Shown: piece by piece, positions 32,038-38,031 of the stretch
How positions within the stretch are numbered: the first letter of the stretch is position 1
How the letters are laid out: the number at the start of each line of letters is the position of its first letter
NCBI GenBank assembly: GCA_012744395.1
Contig: JAAYCB010000104.1
Location: 1 to 38,031 of the forward strand
DNA from: Pirellulaceae bacterium
GTDB taxonomy: Bacteria > Planctomycetota > Planctomycetia > Pirellulales > Thermoguttaceae
DNA length: 38,031 nucleotides
Reading direction: 5' to 3'
Program-made: the position numbers and the translations under genes
The notes under the pieces: model-generated
The model's database searches: none
What the model was told of the DNA's origin: nothing
The model's input: only the letters and a program-made list of their open reading frames with translations

Positions 32038-32670
32038 ATGCACATTGCCGAAGGAGCCCTGAGCGGGTCGCTAGCGGGCGTGGCGGTCCTCGGCGCCGGC
32101 TGGGCGGCGACCGCGCTCGGCACGGCGATTGGGCTCCGCCGCATGGACTACGAGCGCGTTCCGCAAGTCGCCCTGCTCAGCTCGGCCTTCTTCGCCGTCT
32201 CGCTGATCCCGATTCCGCTTGGCGTGACCTCGGTCCATCTGGTCCTCTGCGGGCTGGTTGGGCTGGTGCTCGGCTGGGCCGCCTTCCCCGCGCTTCTGGT
32301 CGCCTTGTTCCTCCAGGTGCTGATCGCCGGCGCGGGCGGTCCGACGACGCTCGGGCTGAACACGGCGGTGATGGCCACTCCGGCAATCGCCGTCTATGCG
32401 ATCTTCCGCCGGGCGGTCCACGCCCGCAGCGAGACGGCGACCTTCCTGTCTGCGTTTGCCGCCGGGGCGCTGGGCGTGTTGCTTGGCGCCGTGCTCAATG
32501 CGGCGGCCCTGGCGCTGTCCGGCAGGGAGTTCCAGGTGGTTGCCCGCGCGGCGCTGGCGGCGCATCTGGTGATCGCGCCGTTCGAGGGCCTGGTCACGGC
32601 GGTCGCGGTGGTGTTCCTCCGCAAGGTCCGCCCCGAGCTGCTCGACGCTCCCCTCCTGGCCACGCATTGA
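32038..32670 (+). CDS. nikM: NikM/CbiM substrate-specific membrane component of ECF nickel importer
   Basis: A 210-residue integral membrane protein with about six or seven helices. It starts M-H-I-A-E-G, the invariant N-terminus whose His2 and free amino group coordinate the metal in NikM/CbiM. Further conserved parts are G-V-T-S-V-H-L-V-L, a segment that also contributes a metal-ligand histidine (His67), and L-Q-V-L-I-A-G-A-G-G-P-T-T-L-G-L-N. The strict N-terminus fixes the start at 32038. No normal ribosome-binding site precedes it; instead the palindrome GATCGGCCGATC directly touches the ATG. Nickel rather than cobalt is inferred from NikR and from the NikK/NikL partners. Confidence 0.92.
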   Translation: MHIAEGALSGSLAGVAVLGAGWAATALGTAIGLRRMDYERVPQVALLSSAFFAVSLIPIPLGVTSVHLVLCGLVGLVLGWAAFPALLVALFLQVLIAGAGGPTTLGLNTAVMATPAIAVYAIFRRAVHARSETATFLSAFAAGALGVLLGAVLNAAALALSGREFQVVARAALAAHLVIAPFEGLVTAVAVVFLRKVRPELLDAPLLATH

Positions 32671-32686
32671 GAGAGGTCCGCCCGCG

Positions 32687-33319
32687 ATGCCTGCCGCCCG
32701 ATCGATCCCATCTCTTCCCCTCCTGGCGGCGGTCGCCGCCGGGTTGGGGCTGTTCGCCGGCAACGGCGCCCAGGCCCACACGATCAACGTTTTCGCCTAC
32801 GTTGAGGACGGCGTCATCCACGGCGAAGTCTTCGCGCGGGGCGGAACTCCGATCGCCGGCGCGAAGATCACCGCGCTGGATCCGCAGGGCGCGAAGCTGG
32901 CCGAGACGATCGCCGACGCGGAGGGCCGATTCGCCCTGATCCCGACCAGGCGGTGCCCTTGGCGGCTCGTGGCCGACGCGGGCGAAGGACACCAGGCGGA
33001 ATACACGGTTCCGAGCGATGAGCTGCCCGAGGGTCTGCCGGACGGCGGAGACGAGCCGGGCGAACCCGCCGGCGCGACGGCGGCCGAGCCGGCCGCCGCG
33101 CCCGCGGACCGGCCGCACCAGCGGCCCGCCGCGGGCGCTCAGGGTGGACTCGACAAGCAGGTGATCGCGCTCCGCCGCGACATCGAACAACTCCGGCAAG
33201 AACTCCGCTTTCAGGACATCGTTGGCGGCATCGGCTACATTCTCGGGCTGATGGGTGTGAGCTTTTATTTTCTCGGCGTCCGCCGCCGCGAGCGCAATTC
33301 CCCCAAGGCCGGCGTCTGA
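32687..33319 (+). CDS. nikL: NikL accessory component of ECF nickel importer
   Basis: A 210-residue protein with a signal peptide (1-30, ending A-Q-A), after which the mature part would begin with His (H-T-I-N-V-F-A-Y-V-E-D-G). A periplasmic beta-sandwich (V-F-A-R-G-G-T-P-I-A-G-A-K-I-T) resembles the domain of NikL, followed by an Ala/Pro-rich linker, a helix (about 155-177) and one C-terminal membrane segment (about 181-199) ending in a basic tail. In NikKMLQO systems it replaces NikN. It lies 16 bases after nikM with GAGAGG upstream. Confidence 0.85.
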   Translation: MPAARSIPSLPLLAAVAAGLGLFAGNGAQAHTINVFAYVEDGVIHGEVFARGGTPIAGAKITALDPQGAKLAETIADAEGRFALIPTRRCPWRLVADAGEGHQAEYTVPSDELPEGLPDGGDEPGEPAGATAAEPAAAPADRPHQRPAAGAQGGLDKQVIALRRDIEQLRQELRFQDIVGGIGYILGLMGVSFYFLGVRRRERNSPKAGV

Positions 33320-33329
33320 GAGACACGCG

Positions 33330-34073
33330 ATGGACCCAACTGCCGACGGCCCAGCCCTGCTCGACCGCGTCGATCCGCGCAGCCGCATCCTCGCCACGAT
33401 CGCGTTTGCCCTGGTCGTCTCCGTGGTCAACCGTCCGCCCGCCCTCCTGGCCGCGCTGGCATCCGCGGTCGTCTCGGCGGCCTTCAGCGGCGTTGGCCTC
33501 CGGGACATGCTGCGGCGATTGGCGCCGCTGAACCTGTTCATGCTCCTGCTCGTGGCCCTGATGCCGCTCTCTTCCGGCGGCCGCCAGCTCGGCACGGTCG
33601 GCCCGTTTTCCTATAGCGCGGACGGCCTCCGCCTGGCCCTGACGATCGCCGCCAAGGGCAACGCGATCGTGCTGCTGCTGCTCGCCCTGGCCGGCTCGCT
33701 CGACATCAACACGGTGGGCCATGCAATCAGCCATTTCCGCGTGCCGGACAAGCTGACCCACCTGCTGTTGTTCACGGTTCGCTACCTCGACGTGCTCCGT
33801 CGGGAATATCACCGGCTCCGCGCGGCGATCGAGGTGCGAGCCTTCCGCCCCGGGGTGAACATGCACACCTACCGGACCTATGGCCGGTTGGTCGGGATGT
33901 TGCTGGTCCGCAGCCTCGACCGCTCCGAGCGCGTCGTCGCGGCGATGAAGTGCCGCGGTTTCCACGGGCATTTCTACCTCCTCGACCACTTCCATTACTC
34001 GCGGCGCGACGCGCTGTTCGCCGCCGCGGCGGCCGCCGTGCTTGCGGGCATTGCCCGGCTGGAGTGGCAATGA
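33330..34073 (+). CDS. nikQ: NikQ/CbiQ, ECF transporter T component
   Basis: A 247-residue transmembrane coupling protein of ECF importers. It has a short N-terminal cytosolic part with L-D-P/V-D-P-R-S-R-I, about five hydrophobic helices, and the cytosolic coupling helices with the EcfT-type motifs E-V-R-A-F and E-R-V-V-A-A-M-K-C-R-G-F, which dock onto the ATPase. It transmits ATP-driven movement from NikO to NikM. It starts ten bases after nikL, and its stop overlaps the nikO start by four bases (ATGA). Confidence 0.92.
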   Translation: MDPTADGPALLDRVDPRSRILATIAFALVVSVVNRPPALLAALASAVVSAAFSGVGLRDMLRRLAPLNLFMLLLVALMPLSSGGRQLGTVGPFSYSADGLRLALTIAAKGNAIVLLLLALAGSLDINTVGHAISHFRVPDKLTHLLLFTVRYLDVLRREYHRLRAAIEVRAFRPGVNMHTYRTYGRLVGMLLVRSLDRSERVVAAMKCRGFHGHFYLLDHFHYSRRDALFAAAAAAVLAGIARLEWQ

Positions 34074-34726
34074 GCGATCCGCTCGTCAAGCTCGACAGAG
34101 TGACCTTCCGCTACGGCGAGCGGACGGTGCTCGACCAATGCGACCTGGCGCTCGCGGCGGGCGAACGGGTCGGCCTGGTCGGCGCCAACGGGTCGGGCAA
34201 GACGACGCTCCTGGGGCTGATCGTCGGCCTCCGCCGGCCCGCGCAGGGCCGCGTGATCGTTTTCGGAAAGCCCCGCGAGCGGGAGGCCGACTTCCGCCCG
34301 ATCCGCGGCCGCGTGGGGCTGCTCTTCCAGGATTCCGACGACCAGCTCTTCTGCCCCACGGTGGCCGAAGACGTGGCTTTCGGCCCGTTCAACCTCGGCA
34401 AGTCGCGGCACGAGGTCGAGCAGATCGTGGCGCGGACCCTGGGCGAGCTCGGCCTGGAGGACTACGCACACCGCGTGACCTATAAGCTCTCCGGCGGTGA
34501 AAAACGGCTCGTCGCCCTGGCCACCGTTCTGGCCATGGAGCCGGAGGTGCTCCTGCTCGATGAACCGACCGCCGGTCTGGATGAGACGGCCGCCGAGCGC
34601 GTGGCCGGAATCCTTGCCGGCCTGCCGCAGGCGATGCTGATTGTCTCACACGATCGCCCGTTCCTCGCCCGAATCGCCGACCGGAGATTGTGCCTCCGCC
34701 GCGGCTGCCTTCAGGAGCCTCTCTGA
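34070..34726 (+). CDS. nikO: NikO/CbiO, ATPase of ECF nickel importer
   Basis: A 218-residue ABC ATPase that powers the importer as a homodimer. All motifs are intact: Walker A G-A-N-G-S-G-K-T (38-45), Q-loop F-Q-D-S-D-D-Q-L-F (Q87), signature L-S-G-G-E-K-R (140-146), Walker B V-L-L-L-D-E-P (160-166) with catalytic E165, and the switch His in V-S-H-D (H194). The D-S-D-D-Q-L-F after the Q-loop glutamine is typical of the CbiO/EcfA class. It is translationally coupled to nikQ and is the last gene of the operon. GGAG lies eight bases before the ATG; no terminator was found downstream. Confidence 0.95.
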   Translation: MSDPLVKLDRVTFRYGERTVLDQCDLALAAGERVGLVGANGSGKTTLLGLIVGLRRPAQGRVIVFGKPREREADFRPIRGRVGLLFQDSDDQLFCPTVAEDVAFGPFNLGKSRHEVEQIVARTLGELGLEDYAHRVTYKLSGGEKRLVALATVLAMEPEVLLLDEPTAGLDETAAERVAGILAGLPQAMLIVSHDRPFLARIADRRLCLRRGCLQEPL

Positions 34727-35496: not shown

Positions 35497-35991
35497 ATGA
35501 CGATTGAGGAGATTCTCAAGGCCAAGGGGAACAAGGTCTACACGGTCGATGCCGACGCCACGTTGGAGCATGTGGTCTCAAGGCTCGTCGATCACAATGT
35601 CGGGTCGCTGGTTGTCTGCGATCGCCACGCGGAGCACGGCGAACGCGTGATCGGAATCATCACCGAGCGCGACATCCTCCATGTCTGCGCCTCCCGCGGC
35701 CAGCGGCAGCTCGCCTCGATCCGCGTCCACGAGGCGATGAGCACCGATCTGGCCACCGCCTCGCCGGCGGAACAGGTGGAGACGATCATGGGGCTGATGA
35801 CCAGGCGGAGAATCCGCCATCTGCCCGTGCTTCGCGAGGGCCGGTTGGTGGGGCTCGTATCGATCGGCGACGTCGTCAAAGCGCAGCACGACCACCTCGC
35901 GATGGAGAACAAGTTCATGAAGGACTACATCCAGCGAGAGGGGGTCGGGAATGTCGAATGTCGAATGACGAATGCGCATCCGCCGGGCTAG
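35497..35991 (+). CDS. Two-CBS-domain protein
   Basis: A 164-residue cytoplasmic protein formed by a Bateman pair of CBS domains (about 8-65 and 76-133), with G-I-I-T-E-R-D-I-L and L-V-G-L-V-S-I-G-D-V-V-K as the typical strand-helix ends. Such pairs bind adenine nucleotides and sense energy state; the partner is unknown. The ATG at 35497 follows AAGGAGG at slightly long spacing. The last 14 residues (G-N-V-E-C-R-M-T-N-A-H-P-P-G) are encoded by a dispersed repeat, and its stop TAG shares the palindrome CTAG with the stop of the convergent gene. Confidence 0.9.
   Translation: MTIEEILKAKGNKVYTVDADATLEHVVSRLVDHNVGSLVVCDRHAEHGERVIGIITERDILHVCASRGQRQLASIRVHEAMSTDLATASPAEQVETIMGLMTRRRIRHLPVLREGRLVGLVSIGDVVKAQHDHLAMENKFMKDYIQREGVGNVECRMTNAHPPG
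35948..35977. repeat. Dispersed repeat family C at the CBS gene end
   Basis: GGAATGTCGAATGTCGAATG followed by ACGAATG; the same words occur at 12960-13022. Here it is part of the coding sequence. Confidence 0.7.
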
Positions 35992-37037
35992 CCGACGTGA
36001 TACTGTTCGACTCTGACCCGATCCACCTCGATACCGATCCCCGGCCCCTGGGGCACGGCGATCATCCCGTCGACTGTTTCGAAGTCTTCGATCGCCAGGT
36101 CGTCCACCGGGCGATGTTGGGGGCATTCGATGCAGCCGGTGAACGCCGGCGTGGCCGCGGCCAGTTGAAGCATCGCCGCCATGGCGATGCCAACCGAGGG
36201 ACCGGCCGATAGAGAAGCCCCGATGCCCGCCGCCTGGGCAATCGTGCCGCAGCGTCTCGCGTTGGCAAGCCCGCCCACGCGCTGCACATCGATAATCGCC
36301 AGCCGTGCCGCCCCGCCGCGGATCAAGGCCATGACGTCGGCGGGGCCCTCGATCGCCCGCGAGACGGCCAGGGGAACCGTGGTCTGCCGCCGCAAGGCGG
36401 ACAACGGCTCGAGCCGGCGATCGGCCAGCGGATCGAGGAGGAAATCCAGCGGCACGTCCTCGATGCGGCGGCAGAGTTCGAGGGCCTGCTCCGGATTGTA
36501 GACACCGCGGCCGTCAAGCCGCAGCTCGACACGGTCGCCGACCGCCTCGACCAGCGCCGTGACGACGTCCTCGTCACTGGAAAGACGCCCCGCGGCCGAG
36601 ACGGTTTGCCAATGGAATCCCTGCTCGGCCATCTCCCGCGAAAGCTGGAGGACCTGTTCAATCGTAGCGCCGTGGAGGCGGATGCCCAGCGGCAGACGCT
36701 GCCGGTACTGCCCGCCGAACAGGCAGCAGAGGGGCAGGCCGGCGACCTGGCCCACCAGGTCCCAGGAGGCCATCTCGACGGCGGCCTGCAAGGGGCGGGG
36801 CCGCAGGGCCTCCAGATCGAGCAGTTCCTCGATGTCGAACGCGCTGCGGCCCGCGAGAATCGACAGCAGGATGTCGCGCCGGGCGGGAAGTTCCGAGGCG
36901 CGCCAGGCAAGCCCGGCCTCGCCCCAGCCCTCCAGACCCGACTTGGTCGCCAAACGGACGAGCACCGACGGAATCGGCGGTTCGGAACCGATCGCCTCGC
37001 GCTCGACCAGGAAAAGTTCCACGTCGTTGATCGTCAT
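35988..37037 (-). CDS. Enolase-superfamily protein, catalytic residues largely lost
   Basis: A 349-residue protein with the capping domain (1-115) and TIM barrel of the mandelate racemase/muconate lactonizing group. The barrel ends carry D175 (R-L-D-G-R-G) as first metal ligand, an aspartate D202 (L-L-D-P) where Glu is usual, and V-S-R-A at 225-228 where the third acidic ligand is expected. The K-x-K acid/base motif after 'G-F' reads W-Q-T-V-S (143-147). D250 in I-I-D-V-Q-R-V-G-G is kept. It is therefore probably inactive as a typical enolase-type enzyme, or does something different. Its ATG overlaps the ispH stop by four bases. Confidence 0.82.
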   Translation of the reverse strand: MTINDVELFLVEREAIGSEPPIPSVLVRLATKSGLEGWGEAGLAWRASELPARRDILLSILAGRSAFDIEELLDLEALRPRPLQAAVEMASWDLVGQVAGLPLCCLFGGQYRQRLPLGIRLHGATIEQVLQLSREMAEQGFHWQTVSAAGRLSSDEDVVTALVEAVGDRVELRLDGRGVYNPEQALELCRRIEDVPLDFLLDPLADRRLEPLSALRRQTTVPLAVSRAIEGPADVMALIRGGAARLAIIDVQRVGGLANARRCGTIAQAAGIGASLSAGPSVGIAMAAMLQLAAATPAFTGCIECPQHRPVDDLAIEDFETVDGMIAVPQGPGIGIEVDRVRVEQYHVG

Positions 37038-37957
37038 CCCCGAAGCTCTCTCGGCAATTGAAATCGGACGTTCTCTTCGCGCACCCGATGGGTCCGCAGA
37101 CTCGTCTGGAAGCGGCCCCGCAACCACGCGACGCATCGCTCCACGAGGCCTTCCGGAGCACTCGCGCCGGCCGTGATCACCACGGTCTCCTCGCCCGAAA
37201 ACCAATCCGGGCGGATGTCGTCCGGGCCGTCGATCAGGTAGGCCGGCACGTCCTGGTTGTTGGCGATCTCGACGAGGCGCTGGCTGTTGGAGCTATTCCG
37301 GCTGCCGACGACGAGAACCAGGTCGGCCTGGCCGGCGAGAATGCGGACCGCCTCCTGGCGGTTCTGCGTCGCGTAGCAGATATCCTCTTTTGCCGGCCCC
37401 TCGATCTGCGGGAACCGCTGCTTGAGGCGGCGGATGATCAGCGAGGCGTCGTCCACCGAGAGCGTCGTCTGGGTCAAGTAGGCGAGCTTTTCCGTTCCGG
37501 AAAACTCGAGCCGGTCGACGTCTTCCACGCTCCCCACCAGGTGGATCGCCTCGGGCGCCTCGCCGATCGTGCCGATCACCTCGTCGTGCCCCCGGTGGCC
37601 GATGAGCACGATCTTGTATCCCTCGCCGGCGAAACGCGCCGCCTCGCGATGGACCTTGGTCACCAGGGGGCAGGTCGCGTCGATCGTCGCCACGTTCCGC
37701 GCTTCCGCGCTGCGGCGGACCTCCGGGGAGACGCCGTGGGCCGAGTAAAGCAGGTTCGCCCCGGCGGGCACGTCGTCCAGATGCTCGACGAAGACGACTC
37801 CCCGAGCGCGGAAGTGCTCGACGACCCAGCGGTTGTGGACAATCTCGTGATACACGAAAACCGGCGGTCCGAATCGCGCCAACGCGATTTCGAGACTCTC
37901 AATCGCCATGTTCACGCCCGCACAAAACCCGCGCGGCGCGGCGAGAATAATCTGCAT
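37034..37957 (-). CDS. ispH: 4-hydroxy-3-methylbut-2-enyl diphosphate reductase IspH
   Basis: A 307-residue iron-sulfur enzyme making IPP and DMAPP in the last step of the MEP isoprenoid pathway. The three cluster cysteines are C12 (R-G-F-C-A-G-V), C96 (D-A-T-C-P-L-V) and C194 (E-D-I-C-Y-A-T-Q-N-R-Q), as in E. coli. H-E-I-V-H-N, S-A-H-G-V-S-P and T-Q-T-T-L-S also match. The ATG at 37957 gives the conserved M-Q-I-I-L-A start with AGGAG upstream; an ATG seven codons earlier contains that site and is less likely. It is the first gene of a two-gene operon with the enolase-like gene. The remaining 74 bases to the window end show nothing certain. Confidence 0.96.
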   Translation of the reverse strand: MQIILAAPRGFCAGVNMAIESLEIALARFGPPVFVYHEIVHNRWVVEHFRARGVVFVEHLDDVPAGANLLYSAHGVSPEVRRSAEARNVATIDATCPLVTKVHREAARFAGEGYKIVLIGHRGHDEVIGTIGEAPEAIHLVGSVEDVDRLEFSGTEKLAYLTQTTLSVDDASLIIRRLKQRFPQIEGPAKEDICYATQNRQEAVRILAGQADLVLVVGSRNSSNSQRLVEIANNQDVPAYLIDGPDDIRPDWFSGEETVVITAGASAPEGLVERCVAWLRGRFQTSLRTHRVREENVRFQLPRELRG

Positions 37958-38031
37958 GGTTTGCTCGCTCCTGGGCAAGCATCATAATGAATCGGTGAGG
38001 CAGCAACCAGGGGCATGAGGCCGCGAGATTC

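Follow-up and report, generated by a model that had tools for sequence, protein, structure and literature searches.

The gene that lies directly behind ispH in the stretch of DNA analysed here (38,031 nucleotides from a Pirellulaceae bacterium, called the window in what follows) codes for a protein of the enolase superfamily that has kept its fold and lost its catalytic residues. This protein, named ENO below, belongs to a clade of single origin that is maintained by purifying selection, mostly in a conserved gene neighbourhood. We privilege the hypothesis, held with about even confidence, that ENO is a conserved pseudoenzyme which would act as a co-expressed, non-catalytic partner of isoprenoid/squalene metabolism. 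The relevant features at this end of the window are:

35497 to 35991, plus strand: gene of a two-CBS-domain protein, convergent with ENO; several orthologous loci have such a gene in the corresponding position
35988 to 37037, minus strand: ENO, the pseudo-enolase gene (349 amino acids; enolase superfamily fold of the MLE/MR type without the catalytic residues)
37034 to 37037, minus strand: ATGA overlap of the ispH stop and the ENO start, present among linked loci in the window's genus only
37034 to 37957, minus strand: ispH, coding for 4-hydroxy-3-methylbut-2-enyl diphosphate reductase (307 amino acids; NCBIfam IspH models)
37958 to 38031, no strand: beginning of the intergenic region between the divergent genes ispH and hpnC, where the contig ends

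Two Pfam models match ENO above their cut-offs, MR_MLE_C (144 bits) and MR_MLE_N (36.9 bits). Its AlphaFold (AF2) model is confident (pLDDT 92.4, pTM 0.90) and superposes over the full length of the protein on muconate and chloromuconate lactonizing enzymes (Z about 42, 344-346 residues). Judged by this full-length homology and by the predicted structure, ENO is a member of the enolase superfamily with the MLE/MR fold, composed of a capping domain and a modified (beta/alpha) barrel. The whole fold is common to the MLE subgroup enzymes 1nu5, 3dgb and 3i4k, with 23-26% identity. Among the curated enzyme families of NCBIfam none reaches its cut-off (the top score is 118 bits against a cut-off of 335), and ENO is by this measure no member of the known isofunctional families of muconate cycloisomerase, gluconate/galactonate dehydratase, OSBS or epimerases.

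The register of the active-site motifs was established from ungapped alignments to solved relatives and to intact relatives, together with a profile-profile alignment. It assigns the key positions as follows:

36597 to 36605, minus strand: codons of T145-V146-S147, the K-x-K place of relatives, with Lys in 0/53 orthologues
36513 to 36515, minus strand: D175, sole remaining metal ligand (ligand 1), invariant in 53/53
36432 to 36437, minus strand: L201 (Glu of ligand 2 lost) and D202 (newly invariant Asp), from the orthologue alignment
36357 to 36362, minus strand: S226 (ligand 3 lost) and R227, which is Arg in 39/53 where relatives have Glu
36288 to 36290, minus strand: D250, at the presumed MR-type Asp or AEE-type Lys place, kept in 42/53

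A reading of the DNA from the sequence only had taken Q-T-V for the altered K-x-K motif, which all three kinds of alignment show to be one residue out of register: the true site is T145-V146-S147, and Q144 stands one residue ahead of it. Both lysines of the motif are present in 16/16 and 23/23 intact relatives. A similar shift explains the claim that the second metal ligand is Asp instead of Glu. The place of this ligand is L201, so it is lost rather than replaced; position 201 is L, I, V or F in all 53 orthologues and an acid in none, and the Glu is kept in 16/16 intact relatives. D202, the next residue, falls on the Q or D of E-[QD]-P; it is Asp in 53/53 orthologues versus Gln in 14/16 intact relatives. 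The third ligand had rightly been reported as missing: S226 occupies its place, and position 226 is variable (W, S, C, R, A, G, H) and never D, E or N in the 53 orthologues. With T145-V146-S147, L201 and S226 in register, ENO is thus devoid of the Lys bases and of two of the three metal ligands, a loss more complete than first described. In competent members of the superfamily, strands 3, 4 and 5 provide three acidic ligands for Mg; of these D175 alone is left in ENO. The further marks of MLE/MR subgroup enzymes, K-x-K on strand 2 and a Lys (strand 6) or an Asp-His dyad as second base, are absent too. D250 stands at what we take to be the position of the MR-type Asp or AEE-type Lys, and its His partner is gone. 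Compared with 1nu5, 3dgb and 3i4k, ENO therefore shares the Asp of the first metal ligand but has no K-x-K, no Glu as ligand 2 and no Asp as ligand 3.

Residues were counted over 53 distinct aligned orthologues and neighbourhoods over 54 distinct ones, 51 of them with enough upstream DNA. The same catalytic losses are found in 53/53 orthologues, which come from several families; those with named records are mainly Pirellulales, Thermoguttaceae and related MAGs. Whether orthologues share the losses had been proposed as a check, with decay of a single copy expected if most of them kept the catalytic residues; not one does. In a tree of 76 rows the 50 pseudo-type rows lie on one side of a single branch with support 100/99, indicating that the clade has one origin, and they adjoin relatives with an intact active site, mostly from Planctomycetota. 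A search that covered 146 genomes from the order and 294 from the phylum found the clade in Pirellulales only, the matches outside this order (218-265 bits) falling within the intact-type range. Pairwise dN/dS lies between 0.08 and 0.21 (nine pairs), which speaks for strong purifying selection on a retained fold across the order Pirellulales. Taken alone, the loss of catalytic residues could betray an ordinary enolase-superfamily enzyme whose gene is decaying. This is hardly conceivable here, a pseudogene being ruled out by the dN/dS values and by the identical losses in orthologues of several families; the reading frames are also intact and of full length, and the predicted fold is confident. 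ENO combines in this way a homologous fold, lost catalytic residues and maintenance by selection, as pseudoenzymes do.

The relatives closest to ENO in our set are intact planctomycete MR/MLE-like proteins (L073-L086, from Planctomycetaceae/Isosphaeraceae and others), with about 29-33% identity and a profile alignment that spans the full length. They differ from ENO in keeping L-K-T-K, D-P-N, F-E-Q-P, N-E-S and H-C-x-H-D, and none has ispH or hpnCDE in the DNA seen. At the third-ligand site these proteins read L-N-E-S, with Asn for Asp, and more distant relatives read A-D-E-S.

The ispH product scores 429.6 bits with NCBIfam model PRK01045.1-2 (cut-off 420) and 315 bits with TIGR00216 (cut-off 188), and its gene is single-copy in the window's genome. 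A duplicated ispH as the gene linked to ENO is ruled out, since each of the 16 carrier genomes with a match has one ispH. The neighbourhood, which the sequence-only reading had allowed might not be conserved, shows ispH directly upstream of ENO on the same strand in 37 of the 51 informative distinct loci, including most deep branches. The ATGA overlap reported there is present at 37034-37037. The accompanying claim that both proteins are made together is right only in part: 2/37 linked loci, both of the window's own genus, have the overlap (spacing -1), and gaps of 2 to 253 nt separate the two genes in the rest. The view of a pseudoenzyme tied to IspH likewise stands as an association but proves too narrow, because the conserved unit is larger: in most loci with enough flank hpnE-hpnD-hpnC lie on the opposite strand, divergent from ispH (hpnE-hpnD-hpnC <> ispH-ENO). 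The window forms one end of contig C10, and its positions 37905-38031 correspond to L167:1-127 of contig C421 from the same genome, an exact overlap of 127 nt that looks like an assembly-graph break. The start of hpnC is at base 133 of contig C421, some 85 nt away from ispH, and hpnD and hpnE come after it; given the shared 127 nt, hpnC-hpnD-hpnE continue directly past the window edge. A squalene-hopene cyclase gene is found on contig C428 of this genome. On the other side of ENO, the CBS-domain gene overlaps it tail to tail by 4 nt, and the genes beyond vary between loci.

The link to this locus has exceptions. ENO is not behind ispH in 14/51 distinct loci, with the same residues lost; it follows thrC in L053 and L059 (thrC of the latter identified by likeness to the former), purH in L096 and other genes elsewhere. 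The divergent ispH/hpnC pair persists in four genomes (G024, G039, G049, G051) although ENO moved, and roughly 60 genomes by hand count have the pair without ENO. A match to HpnC was sought in ENO carriers and none was found in G061, G112 and G032, while many HpnC-positive genomes have no ENO. This pattern of presence and absence rules out ENO as a strict component of the HpnCDE squalene module. With ENO elsewhere in 14 loci, ispH/hpnC pairs devoid of it and carriers without HpnC, ispH/hpnCDE looks like an older core to which ENO would have been added in some families, to be usually but not always kept there. The 14 displaced copies, the pairs left behind and the HpnC-less carriers would also suit a role of ENO unrelated to isoprenoids, its place behind ispH being an old and rarely broken gene order. 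We consider this unlikely because the adjacency holds in the 37 loci even where ENO identity falls to about 30-45%, whereas the genes beyond the CBS gene vary, and because squalene genes still adjoin ENO in three loci without ispH next to it (L067, L069 and L071, where ENO is 5' of hpnD...hpnE).

A rather unlikely alternative, though one with residues in its favour, is that ENO is an enzyme with new chemistry or a specific ligand binder that works without the canonical metal or the Lys bases. A re-tooled barrel mouth composed of R120, Q144, D175, D202, R227, D250 and E304 would then bind an anionic isoprenoid or another metabolite. D175 and D202 never vary among the 53 orthologues, and conservation is 48/53 for R120, 43/53 for Q144, 42/53 for D250, 40/53 for E304 and 39/53 for R227; most of these residues are predicted at the C-terminal ends of barrel strands, and D202 and R120 are clade-specific. 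The invariance of the two Asp and the retention of R120 are what a binding site or a new active site would need, and they count against a non-catalytic reading. Against new chemistry, position 226 varies freely, several deep branches have another residue in place of R227, and the pocket is not preferentially conserved. Conservation at 34 strand-end positions, taken as the pocket, is 0.477 in the ENO clade versus 0.453 in the rest of the barrel (p 0.21), and the set shows no extra conservation whether the clade's inner or outer part is considered. In intact relatives the corresponding values are 0.744 versus 0.622 and 0.749 versus 0.610 (both p below 0.0002). A second set, the nine canonical catalytic and metal positions, gives 0.483 in the ENO clade (p 0.30) versus 0.852-0.865 in intact relatives (p below 0.0002). 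The pocket that was expected to stay conserved thus does no better than the surrounding barrel. Many of the residues conserved specifically in the clade are charged and located outside it (E36, E49, R53, R54, D68, E71, R217, R240, R261, R340 and E344). Since the barrel mouth is not unusually conserved and these charged residues are retained, a non-catalytic binding partner is favoured over new chemistry, and the pocket result leans towards a putative scaffold or regulator.

We infer that ENO acts without catalysis, and gene order by itself suggests an isoprenoid enzyme as its partner; ENO may have a role specific to IspH. The non-catalytic partner that we privilege may have arisen as follows. 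In one lineage, a Pirellulales ancestor of ENO akin to enzymes whose active site is intact lost the catalytic His, both catalytic lysines and two of the three ligands for the metal. The fold was retained and the gene came to sit behind ispH, in a locus with hpnC, hpnD and hpnE. ENO would most likely serve there as a binding partner, such as a scaffold, a chaperone or a flux sensor, between the MEP pathway (IspH) and squalene. In a broader formulation, to which we lend just short of even confidence, the clade would have left Mg-enolate chemistry and become either a dedicated MEP-to-squalene regulator or scaffold, or a protein that converts or binds an isoprenoid intermediate without a metal.

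The enolase superfamily is a standard example of divergent evolution in which one partial reaction, the metal-assisted abstraction of a proton, has been conserved. The ENO clade, which would have dropped this reaction in an isoprenoid/squalene locus, offers a test case for the passage from enzyme to non-enzyme, and ENO is a candidate component of isoprenoid and squalene/hopanoid metabolism in planctomycetes. Such an accessory could have been missed by genetics because Thermoguttaceae and the other families involved are known mostly from MAGs. The open-licence literature searched gave no account matching ENO of an enolase-superfamily protein with ispH, of an enolase-superfamily pseudoenzyme or of a planctomycete HpnCDE locus. 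The general class of pseudoenzymes, which includes pseudokinases among others, is reviewed in PMC10415035; like ENO, its members keep the fold, have lost catalytic residues and are under selection. Conserved pseudoenzymes are therefore already known, and it is the enolase-superfamily clade of them, next to isoprenoid genes and not found in the literature searched, that is new.

Some minor observations complete the picture. The conserved cysteines C104, C189 and C263 of ENO are unlikely to contribute to a shared Fe-S site, as they are on separate helices in the predicted model. Cobalt ECF transporter genes (CbiM, CbiQ, ATPase) occupy positions 32038-34726 of the window on the plus strand. Three ispH-type genes were found in each of G064 and G082, and two in some other genomes. 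Finally, much of Pirellulales has ispH and hpnC side by side in divergent orientation, even in genomes without ENO (G075, G132, G144, G084 and others), a pairing that links the MEP pathway with squalene synthesis.
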